Shown: positions 2,770 through 60,632 of the stretch, one piece after another | How positions within the stretch are numbered: the stretch's first letter is position 1 | Layout of the letters: each line of letters opens with the position of its first letter | Source of the DNA: Ulota crispa | Lineage: Eukaryota; Streptophyta; Bryopsida; Orthotrichales; Orthotrichaceae | NCBI GenBank assembly: GCA_963920765.1 | Contig: OY987251.1 | Location: 11,597,219 to 11,661,218 of the forward strand | Direction: 5' to 3' | Length of the DNA stretch: 64,000 nt | Notes under the pieces: model-generated | The model's database searches: none | What the model saw: only the letters and a program-made list of their open reading frames with translations | What the model was told of the DNA's origin: nothing | Made by a program: the position numbers and the translations under genes

Positions 2770-4119
2770 GGGGGAATGACTAGGGGGACACCCCTCATTT
2801 GCTAAGTGGACACCCCTTATAGCCCACCCTATTAAATTTGAGATTCTTATTATGTTGAAAGATGAAATAAAATCAAAACAATATTTTAGCGCACATCTGC
2901 ATTTGCAAGTGTTGCAGACATACAACATATATGTCTCATTTGTGACATGGTCAAAAGTTAAACTTACAAATGAAAGGAGTGACTAGTTTAACCCCTAAAG
3001 GACCATTGTCCCCTCGGGGGACAAATGGGATTTTGGGCAGGTACCTATGGCTAAACTACTTTGCATGATTTTCTGAAACTTTTATTCAAGGTGGGGAATG
3101 TGAAGACCTACGTGGGGGTATAATTTTTTCTCCATTTTGACAATTATTGAAGAAGTTATGCATGAATAACTGAAAAACAAGGGAGAATCGGGCATAAAAA
3201 AAACTTGCAAATTTTTTAAATAAAATCTTGAAAGTGGTTCTTTAAATTTTTATGTATTTGGGAAGCTTTGAATCATTTAGTTTTGATAGATGAGATGAAA
3301 GTTATGAGAAGTTTTAGTTTGCGGATAGGTATGAGACTCCCAAACCTCCATTCTTTTTCCCCCTTGTAAAACTTTTTGCTTTACTTTTTTGAGCTCTTTG
3401 TGTATTTGTTTTTTGACTTTTTTTTGCAAGTTGTAGTAGACTAAGATTCCTTGGTTTTCACCATTTGGATCAAAGTAATTTGGGTTTTTGAATTTTACAT
3501 AAATCCTCCAATTTTGCCTAGTGTATATGCAAATTTATGACCTTACGGCATTGCAAGATTTTACAAAGTATGATCCACACCTCCATTTCATTTGAAAATT
3601 CTCCCACATTTATCTAACTTGGTCTTCTACATGGGAAAAATAAACCGCAACTTTGCGTAAAGCAATTTTTTTGATATAGGAGCCGTCAAAGGCTTTTGAA
3701 ATTTCTGGGCAGCAATGAAAAAAACTTTTTTTTCATTTCTTATGTGAATATCTCACTCCTCACCATCTAGAATGAGCTAATTTTTTTGCATAAGTACCTC
3801 CCATTGTCTAGAGCAAGATCTTACAATTGGATTTCCAAAAAAAAAAAAAAATTACATTTCTCCTCACTCCCCCAAAAGTGGCAGTTTTGAGTGATTTTCA
3901 CAAAAAAATGGGCTTGGGCCTTTAGGGGTTAACTCTTGACCATGTCACAAATAAAACATATTTTTGTTACATGTTTGTAACGCTTGTAGATGCAAATGTG
4001 TGCTAAAATATTGTTTGATTTTATTTCATATTTCAATATAAGAATAATCTCAAATTTAATAGGTTAGGCTATAGGGGGTGTCCACAGCAACTGGGGGGTG
4101 TCCCCCTAGTCATTCCCCC
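2770..4119. mobile_element. Foldback element interrupted by a TTAA element
   Basis: Arms of about 190 bases (2770-2960 and 3935-4119) are inverted copies starting GGGGAATGACTAGGGGGACA and containing GACATGGTCAAAAGTTAA at the inner side. Without the TTAA element at 2992-3928 the host is about 409 bases. Confidence 0.8.
2992..3928 (+). mobile_element. TTAA-flanked non-autonomous element, family A
   Basis: Flanked by TTAA at 2988-2991 and 3929-3932. Ends are CCCCTAAAGGACCATTG and, as reverse complement, CCCCTAAAGGCCCAAGCC. Length is 937 bases with no coding capacity. Family A interiors share GGCTAAACTACTTTG near the left end and CAAGTACCTCCCA near the right end. This is a full-length reference copy in the window. 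Confidence 0.85.
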
Positions 4120-4334
4120 TTTTTTTTTGCATTGTAGATGAACAGGAAGAAGCCTCCATGCCCATCTAGGAATGGATGAATTGTGGAGGGACGCAGATGC
4201 ATTGGTCAATATGGAAAATAAAAAGAACAAGAATCTAGCACCATGAGGCCAAAAAAAGCCCTAATGAAAGTATGGTCTACATAAGGAATTTGTGCTTTTT
4301 TTTAAGTATAGAAAATTGTCTAAACGGGTGATAC

Positions 4335-4971
4335 TGTAGGTTGAGAGCAGATTTGGCATAAAATAATTTCCCAAACTTTAGTCAAATAATATTGTAAATT
4401 ATTCTCCAATTATGCTCAATGTCAAATAAAACAAAAAATGGAATTGCCCAATATTGTATAAGTCATTAAGCCTAGTTAGTTTTGGACAATGATCGGGAAG
4501 AATCAGCAGTTAGTATATTGTCAGCCAATTGAAATTGAAACTATCAAATACAAAACTAGCATTTTTTATCCAAAAATCTAATTATAGAATAACATAGTGT
4601 ATTTTTAGAAGTTTCACAAGAAATAACCGGTCCATGCTAGTGGAAAATTTGTTGAAATTTGAAAATGCCGGATTTTAACCGGTGAAGCTAAAATTTCTCC
4701 CCAACCTTTAGTTTTGGAAGGTCAAGGCTAATTCTAGGAGGGCTCCATCTATGCAAACTTTGTCTCAAGGCCTGATTTTGGAAAGTCAAAGATGCTTTGG
4801 AGAAGGCTTGATTCTACTAAAAAAATAGTTGATTGTCATATAATAATAGTTTTTTTTAAATGCCTAATATTTATCTAATTACCGAACTTGATGCCAAATC
4901 AAAATTTTCTCTAAAAATAATTAATGCTGCAGTTTGCTGTCAAATTTGCTTTCAACCTACAATATATGGCC
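4335..4971. mobile_element. Inverted-repeat element, family K, copy 1
   Basis: Left end GTAGGTTGAGAGCAGATTTG is matched inverted by the right end at about 4950-4971. An inverted relative lies at 35966-36368. The interior is interrupted by a family L insertion near 4487-4718. No open frame. Confidence 0.65.
4487..4718. mobile_element. Family L element nested in K
   Basis: Shares AGTATATTGTCAGCCAATTG near one end and a TTAGCTTCACCGG-like inverted end with related sequences at 6780-7015, 12150-12735 and 17222-17430. Boundaries are approximate. Confidence 0.5.
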
Positions 4972-5018
4972 TACATAAGAAATATGCCTTCTTTTTTAGA
5001 GTAATGAAAATAATTTAA

Positions 5019-5339
5019 AGGGAAAATCTTATGGATACCCTTGAAGTTTGCCGCATTTGTATAGGTAACCCTAGTTTTATAAATTACACAAAGATCTTTG
5101 GATCATTTCAAGCATTTGTTTTGTTATGCATGCAACTTTCTTTGTGATTGATGTTAAGGTAAGGAGTACAATAGAACATTAAAAAAAAAACAATGTGCAT
5201 ACAACAGAGAAAGAAGTGGCATGCACAATAAAACAAATGCTTGAAAATTATAGTCCAAGGATATTTATGCAATTTCTGAAAAACTTGATGTATCTATACA
5301 AATACAGCAAACTTTAGAAGTATCCATGAAATTTTCCCT
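5019..5339. mobile_element. Family D foldback element, copy 1
   Basis: Ends GGGAAAATCTTATGGATACC and the inverted equivalent at 5320-5339. The element is close to a full-length palindrome of 321 bases. Related copies are at 25757-26073 and, split, at 58130-58170 and 60385-60442. Confidence 0.75.
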
Positions 5340-5682: not shown

Positions 5683-6801
5683 GAGAATTGCTATAAACAC
5701 ACTCAAAATTGTTAAAGTCACACTCCAAAGTGTGTTTTGAGCATGAAATGTGAGAATTTAACCCTTAAAGGACAGGCCTACAATCATGGATTTTTCATGG
5801 AATTGCAATCATTTTCTAGGAGTTATTTTGGCAACGTAATCAACATCAAAATTCAACATTGTAATCTTAGTAAAAGAAGGTATGTGCATACTACATGTAT
5901 AAAAAATATTCATAAATTTTGGTGAAAATTGAAATTATTATAATTTTTTGAAGCAAATGCAAAAGATATTTGTATTAATTACAAAATGTATTCAATTATA
6001 CCAATTTTTTTATCATGGATGTGAATCACAATGAAGGTCATCATGATGGAATTTTTTTTCCATGTCAATAAAATTAGAAAAAGTAACCATTCCATGGTAA
6101 TAGGTATTCAACTTGTGATAGTAATAAAAATTTCAAAACTTAATTTTTTTCAAAAACTATATTTGTTAAGCTATTTATTGCTAGTTATGCTCAAACTAAA
6201 AACACATCATGTTAATAACTCAAATGGAGTTTTGGTAAAAAGATCCTCAAAATTCAAAGTACACTACATGGTGGTGCATCTTTAGTACTCAATTAGCAAG
6301 TGGGACCCTTTTGTGAACATTGTGCGTGCAAAAGCTATCTATCTACATGCTCTAGATTGCATTGTTCATATCCCAACGGAATCATGGATGAAAAGCATTG
6401 TTATTCCACTGTTAGAGCACTTTTTAGTCATCTAGAGGCCATAAAATGGCTCCTGCCATGTTTAAGGGTTAATGCTAATTTGTTTGATTTGGATCAAAAA
6501 TATTTGTTTCACCTCTATCATTCTAAGGCTATATTCAAAAAATTAGAGGTGCATGAGTTTGAAACTAAAAATATAGGACTTTTGAATTATTGAAAACAAA
6601 AATTCATCAAATGAATAGCAATGGTGCAAGAAAAATTCAACAAAAATTTGTATTTGTCCTTCTTTCTTTCAAGTAGGTGGTAATGCCATGATTGAATGAA
6701 TGATGGACCACTTGAATATCAAAATATAGCGTTAAATTCTCAAATTGCATGCTCACAAGGATGTGGCTTTAGCAAATTTGGGTGTGGCTTTAGCAATTCT
6801 T
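5683..6801. mobile_element. Inverted-repeat host element carrying a TTAA insertion
   Basis: Left end AGAATTGCTATAAACACACT is mirrored by the right end, whose reverse complement reads AGAATTGCTAAAGCCACACC. Inner arms GAGCATGAAATGTGAGAATT and GAGCATGCAATTTGAGAATT also pair. Without the insertion at 5762-6468 it is about 408 bases. Confidence 0.7.
5762..6468. mobile_element. TTAA-flanked element, 707 bases
   Basis: Flanks are TTAA at 5758-5761 and 6469-6472. Ends CCCTTAAAGGACAGGCC and CCCTTAAACATGGCAGG. The interior differs from family A. No coding capacity; the frames at 6031-6285 and 6300-6593 lie in it and look random. Confidence 0.7.
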
Positions 6802-7688: not shown

Positions 7689-7690
7689 TA

Positions 7691-8742: not shown

Positions 8743-8847
8743 AAGTTAGGCATGTTTGTACTCTTTAGTGGTTATTCACGCTATGTCCCATGTTCATCTT
8801 TGCAAGTCCCACCTCAACATGAGGTCCTAACTTTGCTAAGTTATTAA

Positions 8848-9766
8848 CCCCTAAAATTCTTTTGTGTTTAGAGGCCCAAAACTGCTTCAAAATACTAGTC
8901 CCCAAAGCAAGGTCAAAATTTATATTGAAACTTGCTTTTTAACAAATCCAACTATAGGATCCTTTGGTTGACTTGCACAAGTACATTGTCCCAAAATTTC
9001 AGAATGAATATCCACACCAATTGTATGATCAATGTGCCTAAACTTCAAAATGTAGGCTTTTCTAGTCCTTCCAGAAGGTGAAGTTTCGTTTTTCAAACTT
9101 TTTAGAAAAAAACACGTGTGTTGTGTTTCTTGTGGAATTTTGGCAATATGTTGGAAAATGGGTTGAAAGCATACATAAAAAAAATAACCAAAAACAATTT
9201 GGATTCATTTTTACAAAAATAATAAAGTGAAAGGCACTGATGAACAAAAGATAAAACTAATATGCTAATAAGTTTTGGAAGAATTTGAAAAATGTTAATC
9301 CCAATGGTGAGAATGCTCTAATAGACAATTAGTAACTTTAATTTTCATTTTAATTTGAAAGATTTCAAAATTGAAGGTAAAAGATAACTTTATATAAATT
9401 ACATGTTTTTTCTACCCTCTTCCTACCTTCATTGCCCGCAAAGTAAAACTCCTTTTAACTCTTACCTCATTATATAAAATTGAGTGATTCAATTTTTTTG
9501 AGTAGGTATCAATCTATAAAACTCTATAAAAAAAATTAAAAAAAAATTAGAATATTTTAATTGTTGCCCGATTTGACATTGAAATTGAAAAAACCTTCTA
9601 ACTTTTGCATTACTTACCAGAATGACATGAAATAAAGCTTTCCATGTAGATTATGATGAGTAGCATCCATCCTAAAAAATTCATGAAAAAATTCCAAATT
9701 ATGAGGTCAATAGAGCCTGCATGAGTTCTCATAAAGCCCAAAGTGGGCTCCTTGGTCCTTTAGGGG
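8848..9766. mobile_element. TTAA-flanked element, 919 bases
   Basis: TTAA at 8844-8847 and 9767-9770. Left end CCCCTAAAATTC, right end as reverse complement CCCCTAAAGGACCAAGG. It abuts the next element with one shared TTAA. Confidence 0.7.
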
Positions 9767-9770
9767 TTAA

Positions 9771-10683
9771 CTCCTAAAGAATTGAGCCCTTTTTTTGCAA
9801 GTCATTGAAAATTGCCACTTTTAGGGCAATGAGTAGAAAGGTAGAAAATTTTGATTTTAAAAAAAATACAATTGTAGGATCTTGCCTTAGATTACAAAAG
9901 GTATTTGTGGGAAAAAAAATCAGCTCATTATAGATGGAGAGGAGTGAGATATTGACATTTGGAGTGAAGAAAAAAGGTTTTTCTCTTCCTACCCAAAACC
10001 CTCAAAAGCCTTCAAATGCTCTTATAGCAAAAAAATTACTCTACCCAAAGTTGAGTTTTAATATCCCCATATAGAAAACCAAGTTAGACATGTGTGGGAG
10101 AAATTAATTCATGAATTTGACGTGTACAACATACTCCAAAAAATCTTTGAATGCTTGAAGGTCTTGAAATTTGCAAATACACTAGGCACAATTGGAAGCT
10201 TTATGTGAAATTTAGAAATTTGAATTACACCAATCTAAATAGTGAATAGCAAGGACTCTTAGCCCACAATAACTTGGGAAAAAAAAACAAGTACACAAAT
10301 CACTCAAAAAATTAGAGTACCAAATTTTACAAGGGGCAAAAGGAATGGAGGATTGGAAGTTCTCCAAAACGAGCTCCTTCCACTCCACTCCCCTTTGTCC
10401 AAGTGTCCACATCTTGTGCCCATAAGGGCTAACCCTCTTTGGAGCCAACACCCACTTACAAAGGAGAGGCCTTGCCCAAATTGCCCCCCTCCCCTAGTTT
10501 TGATAAGTTCTTGCATAAGTTCTTCATTAGATGTCAAAATAAAGTTTAAAATTAGATGCCTACATAGATCTTTCAATTCCCCACCTTGAATAAATGCTAC
10601 AAAAAATCACACAAAGTAATTTAGCAATAGGTACATGCCCAAAATCCCATTTGTTCCCTAAGGGGACAATAGTCCTTTAGGGT
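9771..10683 (-). mobile_element. Family A TTAA element, reverse orientation
   Basis: TTAA at 9767-9770 and 10684-10687. Ends CTCCTAAAGAATTGAGC and ACCCTAAAGGACTATTG. The interior is the reverse complement of 2992-3928 (for example CATGCCCAAAATCCCATTTG near 10633). 913 bases, no coding capacity. Confidence 0.8.
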
Positions 10684-10734
10684 TTAAGAGTAAAAATGTG
10701 TATGGAAGAAGTTATGAGATTTTTATACAAAAAT

Positions 10735-13982: not shown

Positions 13983-13986
13983 TTAA

Positions 13987-14334
13987 CTCCTAAACGTCCA
14001 CAAGGACGATTTTTGTCCTTTGCCTCCAAAAAACATTCTGAATGGTAGAAGAAAGCAAAATTTCATCTAATTTTTTGCCATAAGTGATCATAAACACATT
14101 CTTCATCATGGAAGGCAGAAAATAACTTCATCAAATACACTCATATTTTTAAATAATCCAAATTGTGAGAAGATCTATATTGGCCTTCCTACAATTTTTG
14201 TGAGGTCAACCTGTATTGTTCACTTTTGCAGCTAGCTAGACACTTGTTACACCAATCATAGTTCTGAAATCCTTGAAAAACACTGTAATTCATTGTAGTG
14301 GGCTGGCCACGAGGATGAGTCCGACTTTTAAGGG
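13987..14334. mobile_element. TTAA-type element, family A3, 348 bases
   Basis: TTAA at 13983-13986, altered right flank TAAA. Ends CTCCTAAACGTCCACAAGG and CCCTTAAAAGTCGGAC. Interior with ATCATGGAAGGCAGAAAATA and TTGACTTTTGC-like segments shared with 15051-15414, the 49029-50035 element and 56773-57106. Confidence 0.7.
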
Positions 14335-14345
14335 TAAAGGGATAA

Positions 14346-15508
14346 CCCCTAAACAACTGTAGTCCCTTAGGGGACAAATGGGACCTTGAGCTTGTACCTA
14401 TGACTAAACCAATTTTGATAAAATTTTGAAACTTTTGATGAAGGTGAGGAATTTAAAAATGTACGTGCACATCTAATTTTTTCTTCATTCCAACATCTAT
14501 TGAAGAAGTCATGCATGAATTTCTGAAAAACGGGGAGAGCGGGCAATCTAAGTAGCCCAAAAAAAATCTTTAAAAATTGCATTTAAAAAAAAAAAAATCT
14601 AAAATTGGTTCTTTAGATTTTTATAAGTGTGAGAAGCTTTGAATCATTCAATTTTGATTGATGAGTGAGAACTTTTAGTTTGCGGGTAGGTATGGGACTC
14701 CCAACCTTCCAATATTCCTTTTGCCCCTTGTAAAATTTGGTGATATGGTTTTTTTCTTTTACTTTTATTTTCCAAGTTGTAGTAGATTAAGATTCCTTGG
14801 TTGAAAATTCTCCCACACTTACCTAACTTGGACTTCTACATGGGAAAAGTAAACCTTAGCTTTGCATAGAGCAATTCTTTTGATATAGGAGAGGTCAAAG
14901 GTTCTTGAAATTTTTGGGTAGGAGGGGAAAATAACTTTTTTGCACTTCAAATGCCAATATTTCACTCCTCTACATCTAGAATGAACAAATTTTTTTCCCA
15001 CAATTACCTCCCATAGTCTAGGGTAGGATCCTATAATTGAATTTTTTTAACCTCCAAAGGCCTAAACTTCAAGGAGGACAAAAAACATCCTTTGGCTCCA
15101 AAAAAAACTCTGTAGCCTAGAAGAAAACTAATTTTGATCTGATTTTTTTTTCAAAAGTGACCATAAATGTGTAGCGTATCATGGAAGGCAAAAAAAATCA
15201 TCAAATACACTTATGTTTTTAAGTACCCCAAGTTGTGAGAAAATTCAGAGTCACTTTATTAAGTCCAACTGCCCTTATTGCAATTTTCATGGAATCAAGC
15301 ATGTACTATTGACTTTTGCAACTTTTTTGAAGTAATATTATTGATGCCCATTTGCAAAATACTGTAGAAACTAAAGTCAAAGCAAGCCACAGTGACCCAC
15401 CCAATGCTTAAGGGTTAAAGCAATTTTTCTACCTTTCTATTCATTGCCCTAAAAGTGGCAGATTTCAATGATTTTTGCAAAAAATAAAAGGGCTCAGTCC
15501 TTTAGGTG
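14346..15508 (+). mobile_element. Family A TTAA element with nested A3 element
   Basis: Left flank ATAA (mutated TTAA), right flank TTAA at 15509-15512. Interior collinear with 2992-3928 but broken by the A3 insertion at 15051-15414. No coding capacity. Confidence 0.75.
15051..15414. mobile_element. TTAA element A3 nested in family A
   Basis: TTAA at 15047-15050 and 15415-15418. Ends CCTCCAAAGGCCTAAAC and CCCTTAAGCATTGGG. 364 bases. Flanking host sequence continues the family A order on both sides. Confidence 0.75.
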
Positions 15509-15512
15509 TTAA

Positions 15513-17865: not shown

Positions 17866-19787
17866 TGCTCACTCATATCAAACATATAAAGCATTTTATT
17901 TGAGTTTTCAGCTATGAAAATAAGTAAATATGAATTTTTATTTATTTATATTTGTTTATTTATTTACTCAGAACTTAGGATGGTTGTATTTTATTAGTTG
18001 TGTAGACAATAGATTTGGTTGTTCATACTCAAAATTTCTCCCTTTTCATGTTAACAAGTATGTCGCCTTCTCTCTCTTAATATCTACAAACTTTTCATGT
18101 GACTTTTCTAAGTGACTTTTCATCATGTCATTCCTCCTCTTTTCCTCTCCTTCCCCTCCTTTGAAATTCAAAAGTTGGGTGATAAATAAACACTACTTGA
18201 CATTCAATAATTTATAGCTCAAGTAGGTTTTAATAATGACATTAGAGTTAGTAAGTCAACCAAGAATCAAATTGACGAAATTATTAAAATAATAAGTCAG
18301 AACTATTTAGTTGATTTTAAAGTTAGTAATTTAGAGGGATATCAAACAATTGATGAGTATTGGTTGTTATGTGGTTTTTGTCATAATGCAAGATTGCCCT
18401 TACCTCAACAAACTCATACTAATGCTCATACTTGTTACAAATTCAAGAATTTAGAACTTTTAGAGTCAATAGATAATTTTGGACTTATAGCATTAATAGA
18501 GAATTTTGAACTAGAGTTAATAGAGAATTTTGAATGTCTTGTGGCAACCAAAAAATCCACTCTTTATAATGTATAGACGGATGATTTCAATATCAAAGTA
18601 TTTTTTATGAACTACAATGCACTTGATATTTGTTATATTGTCAATATTTTTTTTATTTTGGTTGGAAATATGTGGCTTGTAACGCTTTTGTAAATATGTT
18701 GTTTTGAACCTAAATATCCTTGCTCTTAAATAGGTTAAATTCTTCTCTTAATTAAACTCAAGTTTTGCTTATGAAATACTCATCATTTTGCATTTGATTG
18801 TTTTTTCAAAACAAACAAGGGATAGGTGAGAATTATTTTGTCTATTTTATTCTTAAACATAAAGAACAAGATCTAAAAAATATCAAATTATTTTAATTTC
18901 AAGCTTTGTGATTTCAGAAAATGTATCATAGAAATAAAGTTTGCAATTGCGATTAAAACCCAAATCACGGAAAACCGTGGTTTTCCATACTTATTTTTTT
19001 TATGTTATGATCTTTTTGAATTTTCATTTAGAATGATTTTTCCAACCCTCTTTTTCTAGAAAGTTGTGCAAAACTTGCTAATAAATGTATAGATTTCGTA
19101 GTTTTCTTCCCACTTCATACTCCAGGGGATTCTAGTTATTCTATTCTCCCTACATTTTTGTTTAATTTAAAGAAATCAATTTCATAGATAAGTATTACCT
19201 TTATTGATAATATTAAAATTTTCTAAATAAATGAAAGTGTTCAATTTTGCTTAAGACTAGAAAATCAACTCGAAGGTTGTTCCAAAGGGTGTTTAGAGAG
19301 AAAAATAGAATTATTGGTGGAATTCTTTGACACAATTAAATCCTCAGTGCTACGTACACTCATGTTAAATGAATTCACTTTGTTGGATTTATGAATTATG
19401 TTAATTTTATTGTAAAAACCATTGAATCAAATTCTTGTGAAAATCAATTAATAATTTGACCCAAAGAAAAGATAATACTTAGTTTTACAATAAAGAGATG
19501 TAAATTAAACACGTACATTCAAATAAATAAGTCCTAAATGAGCTTCAAAGTAATGTTTGATTGTATTGTTATGGAGTTTATTCTTAAGGAATTGGAATTA
19601 TTGACCAATGGTGGGAAGTGCCCTTGCACTTCAAGAACATTGAACCCTCTACTAAGAATACAAGCACTACAAGAGATCTGAAAGCAATAAGCACATAAAA
19701 CAAATTATGCAACTCGATCTTTAAACTCTTTAAAAGAATTGCTAAGTAATATTTTCTATTTCCTATTACAACGTCAAGACACATTAT
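17866..19787. other. Unassigned AT-rich stretch
   Basis: No gene recognised. A short imperfect duplication of TTAATAGAGAATTTTGAA lies near 18490-18535. Frames at 17930-18115, 18364-18576 and 19584-19784 show no family. Confidence 0.35.
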
Positions 19788-20555
19788 CCCCTAAATGGCC
19801 AAGGCCTTTTTTGAGCTTTTAGGACTTTGCTCTAAATTGAACAAAAAGTCAATACTTTGATAAGTTGTATCAATTTAAATAAAAATTGTAACCGTACAAA
19901 TTCAAACTAGATATGTTAAACATCACTTAGGAAAAGAGAACACATCAACATTGCTTATGAATTGAAAGATTATTATGTTTGATCAAGAGGGTGTTAAAAA
20001 TGCAAAAATGACTTCAAGGCTTTCAATCATCTTTTCACCATGGTTTATTTTGTTTGGCAACAAAGTGCCAATATCTGCCACTAGACTTCTGTCCCTCCAG
20101 ATATGCTGCAATGTGGAGGGGACAAGTGGCACTCTGTTGCCAAAAAAACCGTGCTTTTCATATGTCAATTCTAAAATGTTGGTCATCAAAAAAATATGAG
20201 GTTAAAGGACAGAACATTCATAACTTAAATCATTTTATGGCTTTTCAAAATCTCTTTTACAAATTTTAAAAATGAATTTCTAGTGTAAATTTTCTCCAAG
20301 AGCTAGTACATTTGAGGCTCATTTTTGTGAGCTCTCAACACTAAAAAAGTAAAGGTTGCAATGGACACCCTTGCACAAAATCTTGAATAAAAATTTCACT
20401 ATCAATAACTTTAGAATTGGGTTTTTGATGCTAGAACTAGACTTCATGAATAATAATTATAAAATACTACATACTAAAAATTGTAGCTTAGTTATGTTTT
20501 ATTGAACATCAAAATATTGCCGGTACCAAAATGTGGTGCCTTGGGCATTTAGGGG
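19788..20555. mobile_element. TTAA-type element, family A2, copy 1
   Basis: Ends CCCCTAAATGGCCAAGGC and CCCCTAAATGCCCAAGGC are nearly identical. Flanks TTAT and TATT appear degraded from TTAA. Interior (AAAGTCAATACTTTGATAAG, GTAACCGTACAAATTCAAAC) is shared with 31476-32121, 44927-45571 and 49037-49676. Longer than those by a small nested element. Confidence 0.75.
20050..20150. mobile_element. ~100-base MITE nested in A2 copy
   Basis: TTTGGCAACAAAGTGCCA and inverted TGGCACTCTGTTGCCAAA frame a palindromic core with GTCCCTCCAGAT/ATGTGGAGGGGAC. Absent from the three other A2 copies, which identifies it as an insertion. Confidence 0.75.
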
Positions 20556-22126
20556 TATTGCTTTCTAAGGCAATCAGAAATAAAACTTAGTGTACAAACT
20601 TATGCTTTTTTGAACTTCCAAATAATACCAAGTTTGGAGTACATTTGTGATTTGTTAGTGATCTTCATGTTTCAAACAGAAAGTATTCTATCAAGCATTT
20701 GATTACTAATCATACCATTATCAAATTTAAATCTGGCTTAAAAAATATCTCAGAGGATTTTTTAAAGAAGGATTAGGCAATTTCATTTTAAAATAAAATA
20801 AAAAACAAAACCTTTTCAAATTTTCACATTGACAAAAGTTTTGTATATTATTTGCATGTAATTGGAGGGAGTAAACAAGTGAAAGACAGAATTGCATTGT
20901 TGTCAAAGAAATCCAAAATGTGATTATATATAGTAACAATAAGTTTATATCCATCTTTTAAACAATCCCATGGGAGGAATTTTTAATCCAAATTGGATGT
21001 ATGATATATTTTTGATAATCTCTAAACAAAAGTACATTTTCAATGATATGTATGACATATTTAACTACTTATAAACTTTCTAGATTAATGAACATTGTGA
21101 AAATCTTCAATGTTTTGCATGTATTTCTCTTTGTTTTGCATGTATTACCCAATGCTTTGCATAAGTTTCTAATGTTTTACAAATCAATACACAATCTTAG
21201 TGTCATTTTTACTATTATCTATGGACTTTGGATAGCCCATATTTAGTTATATATTACATAGTAACACATGCTACACGTTTCTAAAACCCAATAATTAATG
21301 TTATATTACTTGAAGCGCTAGTAACTATACACATCCACGTCCCTTAAAGACCCGTTTTGCATTTGCACAGATGATAACAAAAATAAGAAGTTTACACTTA
21401 AGTTTGGCAAATGCAAAGTATACAGACATGAAATATAAAAAACAAGCAATTATGCTACTCGAGGCTCAATCCCTACAGCACTAACTTGTTTTCTAAGTAA
21501 AATACCTACTCAAACTTCCTCAAGTTAGCTTTTGTGAATGCAAAACAAAGCCTCCTCACAGTTGGTATAGAACCGATACAACAATGCAAGAACCAAAGTG
21601 AATTTAATCAAACAATGCTCACCAAAAGGGGCCGGTCATCCTATGTCCCACATCCCACTAAACTTTGAGTATCTCATTGATGTAGAATCAAAGGTTGGGA
21701 CTTGGCGCTTCATAGTGCTTCTCAAGTCCCACATCTTAATTTTGTTGCATTTTGTTTAGGTTGTAATATTTTTTAGAAAGTCTAGTGTCAAAATAGGTGG
21801 GACTTCACTCCAGGCTTGGGTTTACCATTTTGCTCAACCCAACTTTCAACCCAAGTTCCACCAATATTTTTGCATAAACCATTCATGGCTTTCTTTAATA
21901 CTCATATTTGCATTGAATTATTCAACAAAGCTAGGATCTCATGTTGAGGTGGAATTTGCAAAAATGGGACACAAGATGTAATATAAGAGTAGCCTCAATG
22001 GACTTGCCATGTAGGAGCATAAAATGTAAGATGGAGGTGACAAGGAAACTTGGGACCCAATGGAAAGTGCAACCAACTCATCTAATTGAAGTGCACCCCA
22101 ACCAAGAGCATTGAAGCAATATTAAC
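20556..22126. other. Unassigned stretch with dispersed repeat J
   Basis: Repeat J (inverted relative to 10735-10835) at about 21765-21880. The sequence around 21640-21980 shares CTCATGTTGAGGTGGAATTTG-type wording with 8790-8835, inverted. No gene recognised. Confidence 0.4.
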
Positions 22127-33079: not shown

Positions 33080-33083
33080 TTAA

Positions 33084-38134: not shown

Positions 38135-38138
38135 TTAA

Positions 38139-38601
38139 CCCCTAAAGCAGCATTGTCCCTTTGGGGGACAAATGGAATTCCAGACATGTACCTATGGCTA
38201 AACTACTTTGCGTGATTTTTTGAAACTTTTATTGAAGGTCTCGAAATCACACCTACCAACAAACTAAAACTTCTCATAACTTTCATCTCATCTATCAAAA
38301 TTGAATGATTCAAAGCTACCCACGTCTATATAAGTCTAAAGAACCTATTTTAGATTTTTATTTTAAAAAAAACCCAATTTTTAAAGAAGTTTTTGGGCTG
38401 CCTAGAATCCCTTGTTTTCCATAAATTCATTTTTAGCTTCTTCAATAAATGTCAAAATGAAGAACAAATTACATTCCCACATAGATCTTTGAATTCCTCA
38501 CCTTCAATAAAAGTTTCAAAAAATCACGCAAAGTAGTTTAGCCATAGGTACATGCCCCAAATCCCATTTGTCCCCCAAAAAGGACCCTCGGTCCTTAGGG
38601 G
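38139..38601. mobile_element. Family A foldback derivative, 463 bases, intact ends
   Basis: TTAA at 38135-38138 and 38602-38605. The left ~90 bases of family A are followed by a longer reverse-complement copy of the same half, so both ends derive from the A left end. Compare the independent foldback at 26420-27113. Confidence 0.82.
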
Positions 38602-38660
38602 TTAACAATACTTTTCTTCCTTTGGAGCCCAAACTCAAACACCATGTTTTAAGATAGTTA

Positions 38661-42106: not shown

Positions 42107-43882
42107 GTGAACTTGAAAACATAAAATACTTACACAAATACACACGTGTATATGCATGTATGCATGCACAAACACATACAAATACACATCTCCATGTTTG
42201 TGCATATGCACTTGCATACGTGGTCTTAAAAGTTTTGCATAAATCATATTACTAGAATCACAAGGCTCTTTGTAATGTCACATTTGTAATTCTGTAATAT
42301 CACATCGCCAATCTATGTGTTATCATAGATATAATTTGTAAACTTATTGAATTTTTTACTTTGCATTCCATTCAACATATAAAAACCCTAATAAACTTCT
42401 AATGGTGAATGTATAGCGTAGCAAGCACCAATATCTAATAGAATATAAAAACTTATTTTAAGATTAATATGATGACAAGGGAATACATGTGAGATAAGCT
42501 CAAGAAATGCAAACTATGAATGATGAACTAGGGCACCAAGAAGTGCTGATAAAACATATGCTAGAATTTGAACAAAAGGGAGGTAGGAATGAGAATTTCA
42601 AAGTGTCAAAAGATGTGTTATCAAGATGTAGGATCCCTTGAGCTTCAATCCCTAAATATGATATACATTATTGATCAAATTGGATTATTCATTAGGCTAT
42701 AGATTTTGTTGGAGAATTGTTGCATGGATGAAGTTGGATTGCCAAAAAGCTTCAATAGAGCACAAACCAAATCTTGTATTGTCACAATTTCCTAAGAGAA
42801 TGTTAGATTTTTATTTTGTAACAAACATTAGAATTAAAAAATCTCGCATTGCTAGCTATTCCATTTGGCATTCCAATTTGATTGAAATTCATGTTCATAT
42901 TTGTAAACGTTCCCTCTAAAACCTTGTAAGTAATTTTGGAAGAATTTTTCATCAGAATTTTATGAATGTTCCTATGAGATTACGTTGTTGCTTTTTATTT
43001 TTAGTAAAGAGTCCCACAAGAAGCATGAGTTGCTAGCACTAAAATCACTCTTTTCTTAGCACTGGTGGAAATAAAGTTTACAATATCAATGTTGACAAAA
43101 TTCTTGTATTGTTTTAAGATGCTTTACAAAGATTTGTAGCTTGTTCTTAGAAATATCAAGGAATTAAGTTGGTTGGAATTTACAACAACAATGCTGCAAA
43201 TTCTCTTCTTACCATGTTATTGTTGTTGAACACATTTAACAATCCAAATTTTACTAAAAGCCTAGAGTAAGATGGTATTTGTAGAGTGAGAGGATAGATA
43301 ATATTGTTCTATGCAAATTTGGCAGTTACTAAAAGAATATATTTGCTTATATTTGTGATGGTAAATAATGCATTGCAAAGTTAGTTCCAAATGTTATTGA
43401 CATGCTCTATTTGACCATTCAATTTAGGATGAATTGCTCAATTTCTTTTAACGACTACCCTTAAAATATCAAAGAAGTTTGTTAAATCTTTGAAACAATT
43501 TTTTAGTTCATGATTGGATATAATTTTGGCTGTTATAATCCATGACATTGATAGAAATTATGAAAAGAATCCACAATGTATTTCCATCAATGATTGTGGA
43601 CAAAAGATGCCATTTTTGTGAAGCTCATCAGTCATGAATACTTTATTAAAAGAATTCAAGGGTGAAAATCTATTAAAAGAATTCCACAAATACAAAATGT
43701 CATGGTTGATGAGAAGTAGGCAACAATTGTAAAAGCCCATAAAGTTAATGGCAACAATTTTTGGACTTAGAGCATGTATCACAAATCTTTTTAATGGACC
43801 ACTACATTTGAAACCATAAAAATTCCAAAAGGGAATTCAATGTGTTTTTGAGCACAAAATGACCAACAAATAAAAAATACTA
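42107..43882. other. Unassigned stretch
   Basis: CA/TG-rich patch at 42120-42220. No gene recognised: 42671-42919 plus and 43558-43782 minus are unsupported frames. Confidence 0.35.
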
Positions 43883-44140
43883 AGGTAGACATACTCATTC
43901 GTAGAGGGCACTCAATTCCGCACCTTAGTGTTGAGGTGTTCACCGCCCACTCTTGAACCTAAAGTGGAGCATTACAAGGTGTTGGCATAAGAGAATTTTG
44001 TCACATGTCAATTGCTAAGTTGCTTTGGGAGGATTAGAATTGGGACCGTCAAGTGCCATTATAGGAACATATCCAAGCAATTTCAAGGGTAATCTAGAGT
44101 TGCTTTTAAGGACCTTATGAGCTGCAACTTTGCCCTTTAA

Positions 44141-44374
44141 CCCTTAAATGTCCAAGCAACCATAGGACATAGTGTGTATGCTCTTGTATAGCTGGCATTT
44201 GCTACCAACAAAAAGTATTAATTTGGGATCTTTACTACCTCACTAGAATTGCATTGATTGATATTCTAACTTCTTTGTTGATCTCAAATGTAGTAAAGGT
44301 GTGGATGCATTCCAAATATAAGAAAAGTACATCATATTTTATTGCTTACTACGGGCTGCTCAGACATCTAAGGG
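44141..44374. mobile_element. TTAA-flanked element, 234 bases
   Basis: TTAA at 44137-44140 and 44375-44378. Ends CCCTTAAATGTCCAAGC and CCCTTAGATGTCTGAGC. A degraded reverse-oriented relative lies at 51444-51640. Confidence 0.85.
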
Positions 44375-44501
44375 TTAATAGAAAAAAATGTACAAGAATT
44401 TTTTCCTAAAAAATGATGCCCCATGATAACTTATTGAAAGGCTAGCCCTATGGATTGTTTTCTTGAATTTTCCAAGACCTTGAGGTACCCCAAACCCTTA
44501 A

Positions 44502-44574
44502 CCCCTCAGCTTACTAGCAACAAAAAACTTGCTCCATTCCCCATGTATTCTATGATACCCGGGACGTTGAAGGG
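44502..44574. mobile_element. TTAA-flanked miniature element, 73 bases
   Basis: TTAA at 44498-44501 and 44575-44578. Ends CCCCTCAGC and CCCTTCAACG. The relative at 60764-61168 shows the empty site, so these 73 bases plus one TTAA are a genuine insertion. Confidence 0.8.
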
Positions 44575-44926
44575 TTAAACGATTGGATATAGGTCTGTCT
44601 ACCTTATGATAAGCTTGAAGAACACAAATGCATGCAGGAACATTTGGAGTAAGTTACACATGCATTTTTCATCGGCACAAAAACCATCCACTAATTGAAA
44701 TAGATATCAGTTGTTGTCAATGTTGCTTTTTTATGAAGAATTGTGAATTTGTAGTATATATTACAAAAATATGGTCGAAAGAATGAATCCATGTACTGAA
44801 CACAACAGTTGTAGGGTGGAAAACTTATTTAAGTTTTAAAATTGCCATTTGTTAGTATTTGTATGGTGCTTCTTTGAGCTTGCGCATATAGCAAGATTGT
44901 CTAAACAAATCACATATAATCATTAA

Positions 44927-45571
44927 CCCCTCGTGAAGGCTCATGCACTTTTCCGAGTATCTCAGAATCTGTTTTTGGATGAACAAAATATCAACATTTT
45001 GATAACTTGTATTAATTTTTTTTAAATTGTAACTGTACAAATTTAAACTAGATATATTAGAAATCACATTGGAAAAGAAAACACAACAATATCACTTATG
45101 GATTGAACGATTATAACATTTGATCAAAAGGGTGTTAAAACTGTGAAAGTGATTTGAAGTTTTTCAATCCTCTTTTCACATCTCAAATTTAAAATTGAGG
45201 ATACCAAAAAAATATGAGTATGTAAAGTACAACATGTGTAACCCTAATCAATTTACGGCTTCTTAAAGTCTACTCTATAATTTTATAAATTAAGTTTTTA
45301 ATGTGATTGTATCTCCAAGTTATAATGTACTTTAGGCTCATTTCCAAGAGCTCTCAACACTAGAAAGTGAAGATTTGCAATGGACACCCTTGCACAAAAG
45401 CTTAAATAGAAAAATCATAATTAGACATTTTCAAAATTAAATTTTTGATACTAAAACAAGACTTCAACAAGAACTTTAAAAAAAATCATTGTAGTTAATC
45501 AAGAAGAAAATTTAGACATCCCAAATTACAAACAAGGAGGGACACTTTTGGTCCCCTTAGACCTTGAGGGG
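44927..45571. mobile_element. TTAA-flanked element, family A2, copy 3
   Basis: TTAA at 44923-44926 and 45572-45575. Ends CCCCTCGTGAAGGCTC and CCCCTCAAGGTCTAAGG. Interior as other A2 copies. 645 bases. Confidence 0.85.
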
Positions 45572-45575
45572 TTAA

Positions 45576-46832: not shown

Positions 46833-46891
46833 TACATGGGAAAAATATTTGTTGCCTCAAACTCTTTGTAATTTGTTGCAAAATTGCTTAA

Positions 46892-47848
46892 CCCCTAAAG
46901 GCCTTTTGTCCCTTTGGGGGATCAATGGGACTTTGGGGGATCAATGGGACTTTGGGCATGTACCTATGGCTATACTACTTTGTGTGATTTCCCAAATCTT
47001 TTATGGAAGATCGGAAATTCAAAGATCTACATGGGCATCTAATTTTTTCTTCATTTGACATTTATTGAAGAAGTTCTACATGAATGTTTGAAAACCAAGG
47101 AAGGGCATGCAACCCAAATACTTTTTTAAATTTTTATTTTTAAAAAATAAACATCTAAAATTAGTTTTTTAGATTTATGTACATGTGGGAAGCTTTGAAT
47201 CATTCCATTTTGATTGATGAGTGAGAAGTTTTAGTTTGCAAGTAGGTATGGGACTCCCAAACCTCTATTCCTTTTGCCCCTTGTATGATTTGGTGCTTTC
47301 CTTTTTTGAGCTCTTTGTGTTTCTTTTTTTTTGATTTTTTTTTTCCAAGTTATAGTAGACTAAGATTCCTTGGTTTTCACCATTTGGATCAAAGTAGTTC
47401 AAATTTCTGAGTTTTACACAAATCCTCCAATTTTGCCTAGTGTATATGCAAATTTCATGGCCATATGACATTACAAGATTTTACAAAGTATGATTCACAC
47501 CCCCAATTTGTTTGAAATTTCTCCCACACTTACCTAACTTGGTCTTCTATATGGAAAAAATGAGCCTCAACTTTGCGTAGAGCAATTTTTTTGATATAAG
47601 AGAGGTCAAAGGCCTCTAAACATTTTGGGTAGCTTGAAAAAGCTTTCTTTTGCACTTCAAATGTCAATATCTCACTCCTCTACATTTAGAATGAGCTAGT
47701 TTTTTCCCACAAGTACCTCCCATAATCTAAAGCAAGTTTCGATATTTGGATTTCCAAAAAAGCTTTTTTCCCTAACATTCTACTCATTTCCCTAGAAGTA
47801 GCGGTTTTCAATGACTTTCACAGACAAAATGGCTTGGTCCTTTAGGGG
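46892..47848 (+). mobile_element. Family A TTAA element, 957 bases
   Basis: TTAA at 46888-46891 and 47849-47852. Ends CCCCTAAAGGCC and CCCCTAAAGGACCAAGCC. Near the left end GGGGGATCAATGGGACTTT is duplicated in tandem (about 46915-46953). Otherwise collinear with 2992-3928. Confidence 0.88.
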
Positions 47849-47852
47849 TTAA

Positions 47853-49028: not shown

Positions 49029-50035
49029 CTCCTTAACCCCAAAACGACCCTGGAATTTCCTGAGCTTCTAATCTGCTCTGATTTTAACAAAAAGTCAACA
49101 TTTAGATAAGTTGTATCAATTATTTTTGAATTGTAACCGTGTAAAATCAAACTAGACATGTTAGAGATCACATTAGAAAAGAAAACATAACAATACCTCT
49201 TATGGATTGAAAGATTATAATGTTTTACTATGAGAGTGTTAAAATTGTGAAAGTGATTTGAAGTCTTTCAATCTTCTTTTTACATGGAAATATTTAAAAG
49301 TTGGTCACCAAAAAAATATGAGGTCAATTAACATGCATAACCCCAATCAATTTATGACTTCTCAAAATCTACTCTACAAATTTTTTGAATGAATTTCTAA
49401 TGCAATGTTTTTCTCTAAGGTCTAGTATATTTGAGGCTCATTTTCAAGAGCCCTCAACACTACATAAAGTCAAGATTGCAATGGATACTCATGCACAAAA
49501 TCTTGAATAGAAAAATAATAAACAATTATTTGCAAAATCAGATTCATGAAGCTAAAACTAAACTTCAAAAAGAATTTTTCAAAAAAACAAACTACTCAAA
49601 ATAGTAATTTGGTAAGGTTTCATTTAACCTCAAAAATTGGTTGAGGACATATTCTGTCCTCAAGGTCATTTTGGGGTTAAATGCCAAAGGGGGGACTTTT
49701 TTTTGTCCCTCATATAAAAATAAAAATAAAAATTTGTAGGTTTAAAAAAGTTTATTTGATTTTTTTAGAAGAGATCTTAGATACATGGTTCATCTTGGAA
49801 GGCAAAAAATAACCTCACCAAATACGCTCATTTTATTAGGTAACCCAAATTGTGAGAAGATTCACAAACATGGTGTTGGATCCCATGATACCTTTTTGCA
49901 ATGTTCATGAAGGTAGCATGTACTGTTGACTTTGGCAACTTTTGAAAATAGTAGGATAATGTGTGGGCACTTTGTCACACCAGTGTAGAGCTAATGTAGA
50001 GGGGAATTCACTCTAACCAGCCTAGCATTTAGGGG
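49029..50035. mobile_element. TTAA element family A3 with A2 nested in its terminus
   Basis: TTAA at 49025-49028 and 50036-50039. Ends CTCCTTAAATGCC (split by the insertion after CTCCTTAA) and CCCCTAAATGCTAGGC. Without the nested element it is about 363 bases, like other A3 copies. Confidence 0.8.
49037..49676. mobile_element. TTAA-flanked element, family A2, copy 4, nested
   Basis: TTAA at 49033-49036 and 49677-49680. Ends CCCCAAAACGACCCTGG and CCCCAAAATGACCTTGAGG. Interior as other A2 copies. The target was a TTAA within the A3 inverted repeat itself. Confidence 0.88.
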
Positions 50036-50038: not shown

Positions 50039-50579
50039 AGAGCATCTCACCAGTCCTGGCTCTTTCAAAGTTTCCATCTATTTCTAAAGGCCCCTCAAGC
50101 TCCTTGATCTCCACCCATGCTTTTCAAAAAAGTGGTCTTGCACTTCAACATATCCCATAAATAATCATCTAACCACTTTTCAAAGAAAGTAAAGGATAAA
50201 GTTCACTAAACCTAAAATGAATACTAATGAATAGTGTCTTAACCCTTGAATGGCCCGAAAGCCCTTCACGGCTATATGTATGGTTGTATGTACAAACGTA
50301 TTTGAGTTACTATGAGGGCTTCCAAATTTTTTTATGCACCCACCATCATACAACCCTTTAATATATATGGTTGTAAAACTTAATTTCTAGCTGATTCAAA
50401 CTTCTAAATAATGGTTGCAACTATCTTTGGTACTGTATCTCCAAAATCCAAGGACCCTTCAGGGGTTAAGGGGCCCTTGCTAGAAATGGTAAGACAAAAT
50501 ATCTTGAGAAGATTTTGAGAGTAACCTCAGCAATTTTCATCCATTTTGAGCCTATTTGAAGCACCGGTGGGGATGCCCT
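50039..50579. mobile_element. Tourist/Harbinger-like element with nested TTAA element
   Basis: Ends AGAGCATCTCACCAGTCC and AGGGCATCCCCACCGGTG. Without the nested 223-base element it is about 314 bases. Its left end touches the TTAA of the preceding element. Confidence 0.6.
50243..50465. mobile_element. TTAA-flanked element, 223 bases
   Basis: TTAA at 50239-50242 and 50466-50469. Ends CCCTTGAATGGCCCGAAAG and CCCCTGAAGGGTCCTTGG. Interior unlike A, A2 or A3. Confidence 0.78.
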
Positions 50580-50865: not shown

Positions 50866-51051
50866 TAAGTCTAATAAGAGTTTATCAAAAGTGATCTCAT
50901 ACCTGCAAGTTATTGTTTGGGAATGGTAGATTTGAAGCTTGTAGGTAGTGTTTTTTTATCAAGCAACTTGAAACGCTTAACATGAAAATCAAAGAATGAG
51001 AGCAACTTGCTTCTCTTTGTCTCTTTGTCTCTTTTCTTTTTATTCATTTAA

Positions 51052-51292
51052 CCCCTGAGCGCCTAGCCCATATCCATCAAAATCTAGACCCACTCACACT
51101 CAATCCAACTAAAATTTCATCACAAACAAGATCCATAAAATCTAACCTTATTGAATGGTAGGTGAGACAAGCTCCAAAGTATAAGGAAAAAGACAAATGA
51201 TTTGACTGTACCAATAGAAAGATTATAACAAGTCAAACAAAAACTTTTTCATTTTTGAGCTCCCCATTTTGAGGTCCTGGGGCGCTCACGGG
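51052..51292. mobile_element. TTAA-type element, 241 bases
   Basis: TTAA at 51048-51051, right flank TAAA. Ends CCCCTGAGCGCCTAGCCC and CCCGTGAGCGCCCCAGG, again matched to each other. Confidence 0.78.
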
Positions 51293-51443
51293 TAAATCAT
51301 CAAAATTTAATTTTACGATGTTTAAATTTTTTCATTGATTTGATTTAGAGGGAGATAGATAGCCAAAAGTGAACAGTAAGGTGAAGCCACTTATTTTTAC
51401 ATTCATGTATATTTTGCAAAGAAATCTGAGATTCATCTTAATC

Positions 51444-53715: not shown

Positions 53716-53718
53716 TTA

Positions 53719-58129: not shown

Positions 58130-58170
58130 GAAAATTACAATCCAAGGATATTTGTGCAATATCTGAAAAA

Positions 58171-58553
58171 AGGGCACTGATATGTGTACCACACCCTTTG
58201 AACTACTGTACCACACCTCCGGGGTAAATTTTAGATTTCTACCATCAAAAAGCTGAATTTGAGAATTTTGAATTCAAATTTGGAGTTAGAGATCATGATT
58301 TAGTCTAGAACCATGAAAAAAGTTGCAATTCAACAACACTTAATGAAAAAGCTTATCTTTTTTTACAAACAAAAGTAAAACTAATATTTTCTCCCTAACT
58401 AAACTTTTTCATTAGGTGTTGTTGAATTGCAACCCTTTTTATGGTTCTAGACAAAATCATGGTCTCTAAGTCCAAATCTGAATTCCAAATTCTCAAATTC
58501 AACTTTTTGATGGTAGAAGTCTAAAACTTACCCCAAGATGTGGTACCACGCCC
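58171..58553. mobile_element. Foldback MITE family C, copy 3
   Basis: AGGGCACTGATATGTGTACC left; the right terminus reads GTGGTACCACGCCCTT. Palindromic interior as in copies 1 and 2 (TTTCTACCATCAAAAAGCTG). Confidence 0.75.
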
Positions 58554-58841
58554 TTGTCATTGTTTTCGTTCACCCTATTTTATAGATTCAAATCCTTTGG
58601 CATTTTATAAAATTAAATCAACATTTTAGTATCTTGGTCACTAATCTTCAATTTTTATGCAATCTCAATCAAGCATACTAGTTTTGAGTTTCAAAAAACC
58701 AAAATCCTATTTTTGGTGAATTATTTTACATGATATTTCTGGTTTTACTTGATAATTGGTTAAAAAAATTTGATGATAGATTTTTGAGATTCAATTGCAT
58801 GGATGCATAGGAATCATCCATACACTCATCTTTTCTTTTAA

Positions 58842-59762
58842 CCCCTAAAGGACCATTGTCCCTTCAAGGGACAAATGGAATTTTGGGCATGTACCTATGG
58901 CTAAACTATTTTGCGTGATTTTTTTAAACTTTTATTAAAGGTGAGGAATTCAAAGATCTACGTGGGAGTGGAATTTTTTCTTCATTCCAATATTTATTGA
59001 AGAAGTTATGCATGAAAATTTAGAAAATGCTGCTCCTCAGGCAGCCAAAAACTTCTTTAAAAATTTCATTTTTTTCAAATAAAAATCTGAAATAGGTTCT
59101 TTAGACTTACATAGACGTGGGGAGCTTTGAATCATTAAATATTGATAGATGAGATGAAAGTTATGAGGAGTTTTTGTTTGCAGGTAGGTGTGGTTTTACT
59201 CTAAAAAAAAACTTATAAAATTCATTTTTGAATGCAAATTTAACATTTTTGCAAAAAATAACTATTGGAAAGGATGAAGATTGCTTGCTAGAACAATCTC
59301 ACCATTGGGATTATTGTGATTCAATTCCATTGCAAGGTTATTAACAAAGTAAAATTTTGGTCAATCTCAAACCTTCTTCTTTTTAAAGTATTTTTAAGAA
59401 TGAAAATTAAGTATATTTTGTTTTGGTTTTTTTCCAAAGATTTTCAACTCAATTCCCCACCACAAAAAAATAAACCCCAAAACTCCATGGTGCAAAAAAT
59501 TTAAGTTAAAAAGGTTCAAAGTCAAATAATCTGGTCGTGCAAGTTGCAAAAAAGCTTGTTTTTTACACTTTAAGCGCAAATATCTTGCAATCTGTGCAGT
59601 CAAAGTTTTTAAGTTTTGAATGACACATTCCTATACAAGTCTAGTACAAGATCCTACGATTAGATATGCAAAAAGACCAATTTTCAAGCTTTTTACCTTT
59701 TGCCATAGAAATGGCTGTTTTGAGTGTTTTTTGACAAAATAAAGGCCATTGTCCTTTAGGGG
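58842..59762 (+). mobile_element. Family A TTAA element, diverged right half
   Basis: TTAA at 58838-58841 and 59763-59766. Ends CCCCTAAAGGACCATTG and CCCCTAAAGGACAATGG. Left half as family A; the right half is different. The opposite arm of the surrounding inverted duplication shows the uninterrupted target region. Confidence 0.85.
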
Positions 59763-60632
59763 TTAATAAGCATCTCCAAAAAGTTATAAAATTCCTTTTA
59801 TATAGATTTTAATGTTGGGTAACCACAACCAAATCTTAGAAAAATAGATATTTCATTATGATAATTAGATTTTGCTATTTGACTTATAAAATATGATAAG
59901 GCTTGAATCTTTGAACATAATGGTATTGTTATTTTGTCAAAAAAAATGGTTAAAAAACTAGACATATCTATTTTACAAGATTTGATCATGTTCACTTCAA
60001 CATTAAAAGCTACATAGAAAGAATTTTATAACTTTTTGGAGATGCTTGTCAGAAGAAAAGATGAGTGTATGGATGTTTCCTATGCATCCATGCAATTGAA
60101 TCTCAAAAATCTCATCAAATTTTTTTAACCAATTATCAAGTAAAACCAGAAATATCATGTAAATAATTCACCAAAAATAGGATTTTGGTTTTTTGAAACC
60201 CAAAATTGGTATGCTTGATTGAGATTGCATAAAAATTGAAGATTAGTTACCAAGATAATAAAATGCTGATTTAATTTTATAAAATGCCAAAGGATTTGAA
60301 TCTGTAAAACATGATGAACAAAAACAATGACAAGGGCGCGGTACAGTAGTTCAAAAGGTGTGATACACATATCAATCCCCTGAAAAAAATAAGAATCCAT
60401 ACAAATATTGCAAACTTCACAGGTATCCATCAAATTTTCCCTAATTGAAATAACTTGTATAGTACATATAAGATATGGAGTGTACAACATTGCCATAAAT
60501 AAAACTGTTATCAATAGTTTAAACTCAAAGTTTAACAACACATTAACACGCATGAACAGTAGAATACCGCATCTAAATTTTTCTAAATTAGAATAAATGA
60601 AACTCGTGATCGAGAATGAGGTAATTGCATAC

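Follow-up and report, generated by a model that had tools for sequence, protein, structure and literature searches.

What are the short, TTAA-flanked repeats that crowd a 64-kb stretch of a moss genome, and which transposase could have moved them? The stretch (hereafter the window) comprises 64,000 bp of Ulota crispa, positions 11,597,219 to 11,661,218 of contig OY987251.1 in assembly GCA_963920765.1 (contig C10 in our numbering). An earlier note, made from the sequence alone, had described more than twenty such elements covering about 15 kb and had assigned them to the piggyBac superfamily. Our analysis indicates that they are very probably miniature non-autonomous transposons of that superfamily, resident in the moss nuclear genome. 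TTAA is duplicated at their insertion sites, they are dispersed in high copy number, similar ends occur on loci encoding a piggyBac transposase, and one family, type A, resembles both ends of one such element.

A dense population of TTAA-flanked elements

On both strands of the window, ends of the form TTAACCCYTNANNGNCC occur 13 times exactly, 26 times with at most one mismatch, 40 times with at most two and 84 times with at most three. Four Markov control sequences, drawn afresh at each threshold, gave 0, 0, 0 and 0; 0, 0, 0 and 1; 6, 4, 2 and 0; and 18, 15, 29 and 29 matches, respectively, so that chance matches intrude beyond the second or third threshold. Pairing the end matches by hand yielded 22 non-nested intervals that together cover 15,355 of the 64,000 bp (24.0%), in line with the number and extent first described. 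Under an automatic strict pairing 12 elements remained (7740 bp, 12.1%); five Markov sequences gave no element. With TTAA counted on both sides, the elements range from 81 bp (73 bp without it; 44498-44578) to 1171 bp (14342-15512, which holds a nested element). Decay is common among the roughly 44 ends: ATAA stands at 14342, for example, no exact TTAA is present at 20559 or 24292, and the right ends of the elements at 26416 and 41178 are unrecognisable. Two pairs of elements abut with one TTAA common to each pair (9767/9770 and 38135/38138).

Clustering the interiors of 23 elements (the nested one included) by at least 150 aligned bp gave 10 clusters, where at least eight interior types had been proposed; one cluster joins type A with the nested element at 15047 and the element at 13983. 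Five of the 23, one of them only 81 bp long, had no relative of at least 100 bp among the fetched loci. Nine reading frames of at least 110 amino acids are present in the window; none lies inside an element and one overlaps an element by 4 bases. That the window holds no transposase, as the earlier note had stated, was borne out by a tblastn search with moss piggyBac transposases, whose best E value there was 0.088, and by the PF13843 transposase family, which had no match inside the window when 116 of 528 genome candidates were scored; the closest among the matches listed lies about 69 kb upstream on the same contig. An Rfam search of the window gave no match. Being short (81-1171 bp) and non-coding, with type A dispersed, the elements are miniature inverted-repeat transposable elements (MITEs); for type A, derivation from a longer transposon is supported by the likeness between its ends and those of a full-length element, E3.

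piggyBac transposases and full-length elements

In the whole genome (274.8 Mb, 157 contigs), PF13843 gave at least 120 matches, some of which are parts of one gene; none of 14 control genomes matched. The stop-free frame of 388 amino acids at locus L039 matched piggyBat (9c0f; E = 2.7e-24) and piggyBac (6x67; E = 7.8e-20) in the PDB. Its alignment with piggyBat brings together the blocks TVDE, TDNFF and GVDIVDQ, which contain the DDD catalytic residues; matched by eye, these blocks correspond to D268, D346 and D447, which are required in piggyBac according to an excerpt of PMC2533014. All five frames run against Pfam matched PF13843, and an NCBIfam search with two transposases returned no match. 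Among the transposases that we compared with one another (seven of the eight best together with L039, L045 and L046), protein identity was 28-58% for pairs at E ≤ 1e-5; L002 and the L039 frame are 42% identical. Several old lineages therefore coexist.

TTAACCC-like ends were found on both sides in six of the ten transposase regions fetched with longer flanks, namely E1 (5027 bp), E2 (6010 bp), E3 (8033 bp), E4 (5746 bp), E6 (5102 bp) and E10 (5026 bp). A transposase with matching ends, which the earlier note had named as a find that would support the assignment to piggyBac, is thus present in this genome. The left ends of E2 and E10 read TTAACTCC and TTCACCCC, and within the six elements left and right ends match at 12-15 of 16 bases. 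The 5029 bp that align between E1 and E10 are 90.5% identical, and because their homology breaks off no more than one base from the ends, the limits of this 5.03-kb element are established; E1 and E6 have no DNA similarity at E ≤ 1e-3. Transposase loci belonging to several lineages share the CCCYTNANNGNCC code, altered at a few positions at most, so that cross-mobilisation between lineages would be possible.

Two stop-free matches stand apart, with no convincing end pair nearby: L046 (C8:19570986-19572215), a single frame of 472 amino acids, and L045 (C1:1180709-1181995), split over two frames, perhaps by an intron. Both are possibly domesticated genes. A candidate right end of L046 was rejected as the end of a transposase element, as it belongs to a neighbouring type A2 MITE.

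Type A and its relation to E3

The proposed correspondence between MITE ends and the ends of full piggyBac elements is clearest for type A, the most common of the MITEs. A profile of this family matches E3 at both ends in the right order and orientation, positions 1-208 at the left end (E = 5e-15) and 603-931 at the right end (E = 1.6e-30). A DNA search with the E3 transposase region gave 46 matches, two of them long, on C1 and C10 (1441 and 1267 of 1601 bases, 70%), and both of these relatives carry an A-type 3' region downstream (E = 1.5e-12 and 4.9e-22, respectively). Homology to E3 runs continuously from the transposase side through this region in the C1 relative; in the C10 relative it resumes past an unmatched stretch and reaches the second-last base of E3. 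The A-type 3' region therefore belongs to the element. Shorter likenesses join other types to full-length elements: A3 ends resemble those of E1 and E6 over 22-29 bp, the element at 19784 resembles E4 over 32 bp, and A2 resembles E3 and E4 over 20-29 bp. An A2-like MITE within the E3 region was set aside as nested, not E3's own end. Type A thus fits best as a non-coding relative of the E3 lineage, a non-autonomous piggyBac derivative that would have been moved in trans.

Several observations pull the other way. Only 10 of the 120 transposase matches are stop-free, and 110 contain stops. With 1.5-kb flanks, ends were seen at only 2 of 8 transposase loci, and 4 of the 10 regions with longer flanks (C1 at 1.18 Mb, C8 at 19.57 Mb, C4 at 3.59 Mb and C2 at 34.59 Mb) showed no convincing end pair. 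Matches at 8-13 of 16 bases are seen even between ends of different elements, so end similarity alone does not pair left with right. The types other than A are tied to full-length elements by end matches of 20-35 bp, or by the motif and TTAA alone. A match to the A profile is not enough to tell a MITE from a full element, since the profile also finds the end of the A2-like MITE that lies inside E3 (E = 9e-16). The middle of A (about 208-603, 400 bp) has no match in E3, which makes E3 a relative of the parent, not the parent. In the 5.3-5.4 kb upstream of either E3 relative there is no A-type left end, leaving E3 as the single source of the left-end link, and at the 3' end the TTAA has decayed in the C10 relative and was not seen in the C1 relative. 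The E3 relatives are about 30% apart in DNA, whereas A copies lie 4-10% from their consensus; with relatives so much more diverged, the source that amplified A was not found among them. Finally, in the empty-site comparison described below, 33 of 51 insertions (13 in the window, 20 elsewhere) had no junction-spanning match and 7 had matches that were unusable. The failure to find the left end in the E3 relatives makes the parentage of type A less secure but leaves the assignment to piggyBac untouched. No intact source having been found, the type A family may now be dead.

An alternative is that the elements come from a different superfamily that targets TTAA, either Kolobok or Sola3, and lie near piggyBac transposases by chance. 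Both superfamilies also duplicate TTAA, and with one exact end per ~8.8 kb of genome, and more once mismatches are allowed, an end may fall near any gene; the matches of up to 13 of 16 bases between left and right ends of different elements would likewise fit a chance arrangement. Chance nearness does not, however, explain a 5.03-kb body shared by E1 and E10 whose homology stops within one base of the ends at two loci, nor an A-type 3' region kept in E3 and two relatives. Against Kolobok or Sola3 we also set the 5' motifs of animal piggyBac elements, listed as CACTA, CCCTC, CCCTT and CCCAT in the portion of PMC10813416 that treats them. On these grounds, and with a transposase search of the genome that was aimed at PF13843, we regard this alternative as very unlikely and retain the assignment to piggyBac.

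Empty sites show TTAA once

We compared 51 insertions, 22 in the window (the nested 15047 element included, 41178 left out) and 29 of type A elsewhere, with all fetched DNA after joining their flanks with one TTAA. An uninterrupted paralogue, without a gap at the tetranucleotide and carrying it once, was obtained for 6 of the 22 window insertions (5758, 23341, 44137, 44498, 46888 and 58838) and for 5 of the 29 type A insertions elsewhere (L010, L011, L027, L029 and L035). Ten of these 11 cases have one or more paralogues in which the tetranucleotide is TTAA; the best paralogue of L035 reads CTAA, and this locus also has a gapped relative reading TTAA. In some other relatives this position is occupied by GTAA, CTGA, TTAT or CTAA. 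All of these paralogues and relatives are copies of other dispersed repeats, about 78-95% identical. Set aside were the window cases 15047 (AAAA, TTTA or gaps in other A copies) and 37197 and 38135 (artefacts of the abutting pair), together with L012, L023, L025 and L032, which have gaps at or beside the junction. The usable empty sites record insertion at TTAA with duplication of TTAA. Empty sites in which TTAA is never single-copy had been named in the earlier note as grounds for abandoning the piggyBac assignment; those recovered here carry it once in ten of the eleven usable cases.

These sites also bear on the proposal that TTAA lies within the terminal repeat and that the real duplication is TA or none, as for a Tc1/mariner-like element with ACCC ends. 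TTAA is palindromic, and filled sites alone cannot distinguish the two arrangements. At paralogous empty sites, however, a single TTAA stands in place of the element and its two flanking copies of TTAA. An internal TTAA would moreover leave the outer T and A free to vary, yet 936 of 1066 left termini of type A lie exactly after TTAA. On the strength of the empty sites we reject a TA-type or internal-TTAA arrangement, which we judge to be highly improbable.

Genome-wide abundance and the type A family

Across the genome the exact end pattern occurs 31,318 times (15,685 forward and 15,633 reverse), against 9 (4 + 5) for the same pattern read backwards. At two ends per element, this corresponds to at least some 15,000 elements. 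The first 100 occurrences listed on C1 comprise 33 distinct 13-base ends, of which CCCCTAAAGGACC, the end of type A, stands at 32 places and CCCCTAAATGCCC at 18. In a DNA search with the type A copy at 58838-59766, the best 40 of 9043 first-look candidates were scored, and the 39 non-self copies among them are 88-92% identical to the query, most of them over its full length. Of 30 type A copies fetched (the window copy included), 21 have TTAA on both sides when a shift of up to 3 bases is allowed. The 21-base left terminus of type A occurs 1066 times, in 936 cases (88%) directly after TTAA, and not at all in the controls.

The 30 copies lie at Kimura two-parameter distances of 4-10% (median 6%) from their own consensus, a range biased towards young copies by their choice as best matches. 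Counted on both strands, C-to-T changes in these copies reach 0.264 at CG (157/595) and 0.190 at CHG (108/570; H being A, C or T), compared with 0.059 at CHH (470/7932) and a baseline of 0.037 for any change at A or T (1380/37,542). This excess suggests that the copies examined were methylated and silenced. It is our uncounted impression that many stops in the transposase remnants are TAG, the codon expected from CAG-to-TAG decay at CHG sites.

Spread by segmental or satellite-like duplication rather than transposition, to which the abutting pairs with a common TTAA and the likeness of two pairs of A copies in their one-side flanks might point, has a negligible probability, since those 2 pairs are the only ones, among the sixty 100-bp flanks of the 30 A copies, in which flanks of different copies are similar at E ≤ 1e-5, and since empty sites exist. 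As for the share of the genome, sequence of the window families takes up 3003 of 40,000 bp (7.5%) across sixteen 2.5-kb stretches at round-number positions on seven chromosomes, and 8996 of 86,966 bp (10.3%) beside A copies, or about 7% once scaled by end density; strict pairing in the latter 87 kb found only 6 elements (2.2%). Scaling the window share of 24% by exact-end density (1.14 versus 2.03 per 10 kb) gives about 13%. Very roughly, then, these elements make up 7-13% of the genome, and it is this scale that stands out. In a survey of 207 plant genomes the group averages for MITEs are 0.7-2.2%, with rice at 6.04% as the top figure in the section concerned (PMC12550479), a comparison that is indicative only because the methods differ.

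Individual elements of the window

Type A is represented on the forward strand by copies at 2988..3932 (945 bp; exact ends with TTAA on both sides, A cluster), 23341..24292 (952 bp; right TTAA decayed, with two empty sites, 50868-50742 and 16918-17011 of the window, that both carry TTAA once), 46888..47852 (965 bp; empty site in L017 with a single TTAA, 78 bp aligned) and 58838..59766 (929 bp; the query of the genome-wide search, with empty sites in L015 and at 60199-59961 of the window). Another forward copy, at 14342..15512 and identified by ends and clustering, has lost its left TTAA (ATAA) and is broken by the nested element at 15047..15418; other A copies cross that site without the insertion, and its tetranucleotide is not clean. 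Reversed copies lie at 9767..10687 (minus strand, 921 bp; ends and clustering) and 41178..42108 (minus strand; clustering, one end unrecognisable). Two further elements are both made from the left part of type A: a palindromic derivative at 26416..27115, 88% self-complementary over nearly its whole length and with an unrecognisable right terminus, and a 471-bp derivative at 38135..38605, whose 106-bp inverted ends (87%) both resemble the A left end.

Type A3 elements occur on the forward strand at 31472..32125 (654 bp), with exact ends on both sides and the end resembling E1 and E6, and at 44924..45575 (652 bp; ends and clustering). Relatives of A3 lie at 49033..49680 (forward strand, 648 bp; ends and clustering) and 19784..20559, where the outer TTAA is decayed on both sides and it is the right end that resembles E4. 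The type A2 element at 37197..38138 (942 bp) abuts the 38135 element and has a full-length relative in L046 (81.8%). Other types are found at 8844..9770 (927 bp), which abuts the 9767 element and has a full-length relative among the fetched loci; at 32182..33083 (902 bp), with a full-length relative (79.8%) at 997-1909 of the joined E6 region on C2; and at 5758..6472 (715 bp), a singleton type with TTAA ends, an empty site with a single TTAA in L023 and no relative of at least 100 bp among the fetched loci.

The short elements comprise 13983..14338 (356 bp; ends and clustering, right TTAA decayed, reading TTTA on the minus strand), 50239..50469 (231 bp; exact left end, full-length relative among the fetched loci), 51048..51296 (249 bp; right TTAA decayed, relatives in 2 fetched loci over up to 83% of its length), 44137..44378 (242 bp) and the shortest, 44498..44578. 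The last two have empty sites with a single TTAA in the window, at 60874-61142 and 61016-61171, respectively. The stretch 60874-61171 and the region around 44137-44578 are two copies of another dispersed repeat, one with two TTAA insertions and the other with none.

Other repeats and plastid sequences

Further dispersed repeats lie in the window near 24, 28, 31, 46, 53, 58 and 61 kb. A 20-base tandem repeat (7.7 copies, 96%) occupies 33938-34090 within an open frame of 155 amino acids, and a 208-base tandem repeat (3 copies, 85%) occupies 1167-1765. Elsewhere in the assembly, contig C157 carries psaA and psaB without stops. Its PsaA differs, by eye, from PDB chain 8htu_A at 9 of 749 positions, with 6l35_A, 9lut_A and 7wfd_AA following by score; we take 8htu and 6l35 to be structures from the moss Physcomitrium patens, so that the plastid sequence, too, points to a moss as the most likely host. 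Of the 48 psaA and psaB matches, 46 lie outside this plastid contig; these short fragments on nuclear contigs presumably represent plastid DNA that moved to the nucleus.

Discussion

The most likely mechanism would be that the short elements carry only recognition ends, with the piggyBac transposase supplied from a full element elsewhere. The transposase would bind the CCCYTNANNGNCC ends, cut at the CCC ends next to TTAA and join the element to a new TTAA, duplicating the tetranucleotide; the excision chemistry is drawn by analogy with piggyBac. One end code would, we infer, serve several transposase lineages.

The likeness to piggyBac and piggyBat extends to TTAA duplication, ends starting with CCC and a PF13843 transposase, with the moss frame matching 9c0f and 6x67. 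The differences are the moss host and the 110 of 120 transposase matches with stops. The six full moss elements are also longer, at 5.0-8.0 kb, than the ~2472 bp of the well-defined piggyBac described in part of PMC10813416. Among known MITEs, the CMITEs of the coral Acropora are likewise tied to piggyBac-like transposons and occur in tandem arrays, which may be set beside the abutting pairs seen here; according to the relevant portion of PMC2872659, however, their interiors are more conserved between families than their ends, whereas the moss types combine a common end code with differing interiors. With the plant MITEs of Stowaway, Tourist, hAT and Mutator type the moss elements have in common that they are short and non-coding, with inverted ends and high copy numbers, but the target duplications of Stowaway and Tourist are 2 and 3 bp long (PMC10004981, in part).

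The earlier view that piggyBac-type MITEs are little described in land plants is fair as far as it goes. The name is nevertheless already in use: a section of the review PMC10004981 counts PiggyBac as one of seven MITE superfamilies reported in angiosperms, and the portion of a fern repeat table in PMC6890710 without its column heading has a PiggyBac line with the figure 1230. The main text of the 207-genome survey contains neither 'piggybac' nor 'TTAA' (0 occurrences each; PMC12550479). In the titles and abstract openings listed from the open-licence literature we found no description of a piggyBac element in a moss, a weak negative; the excerpt of a paper on the moss Niphotrichum held only 'piggybacking', and excerpts of two papers on piggyBac as a plant tool held nothing on native elements. 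As excerpts of work on corals (PMC2872659) and angiosperms (PMC10004981) indicate, MITEs linked to piggyBac are already known, and what is notable here is the host and the scale.

A broader proposal can be offered only tentatively, and we think it more doubtful than probable: that in mosses piggyBac has become a dominant source of MITEs, with diverged lineages keeping one 13-base end code such that any of them could move many unrelated interiors, and with a genome share, very roughly 7-13%, above the MITE shares quoted in the cited section of the 207-genome survey.

Research on piggyBac has dealt mostly with animals, and the element serves as a tool for gene delivery. With its more than 30,000 exact ends and its more than 100 transposase matches from several lineages, this moss genome would offer a natural plant system for the study of piggyBac end recognition, of the persistence of MITEs beyond the life of their transposase, and of the question whether plant silencing keeps them in check. 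Where the repeat annotation of a moss has no piggyBac class, a sizeable part of the genome may be overlooked or wrongly named.

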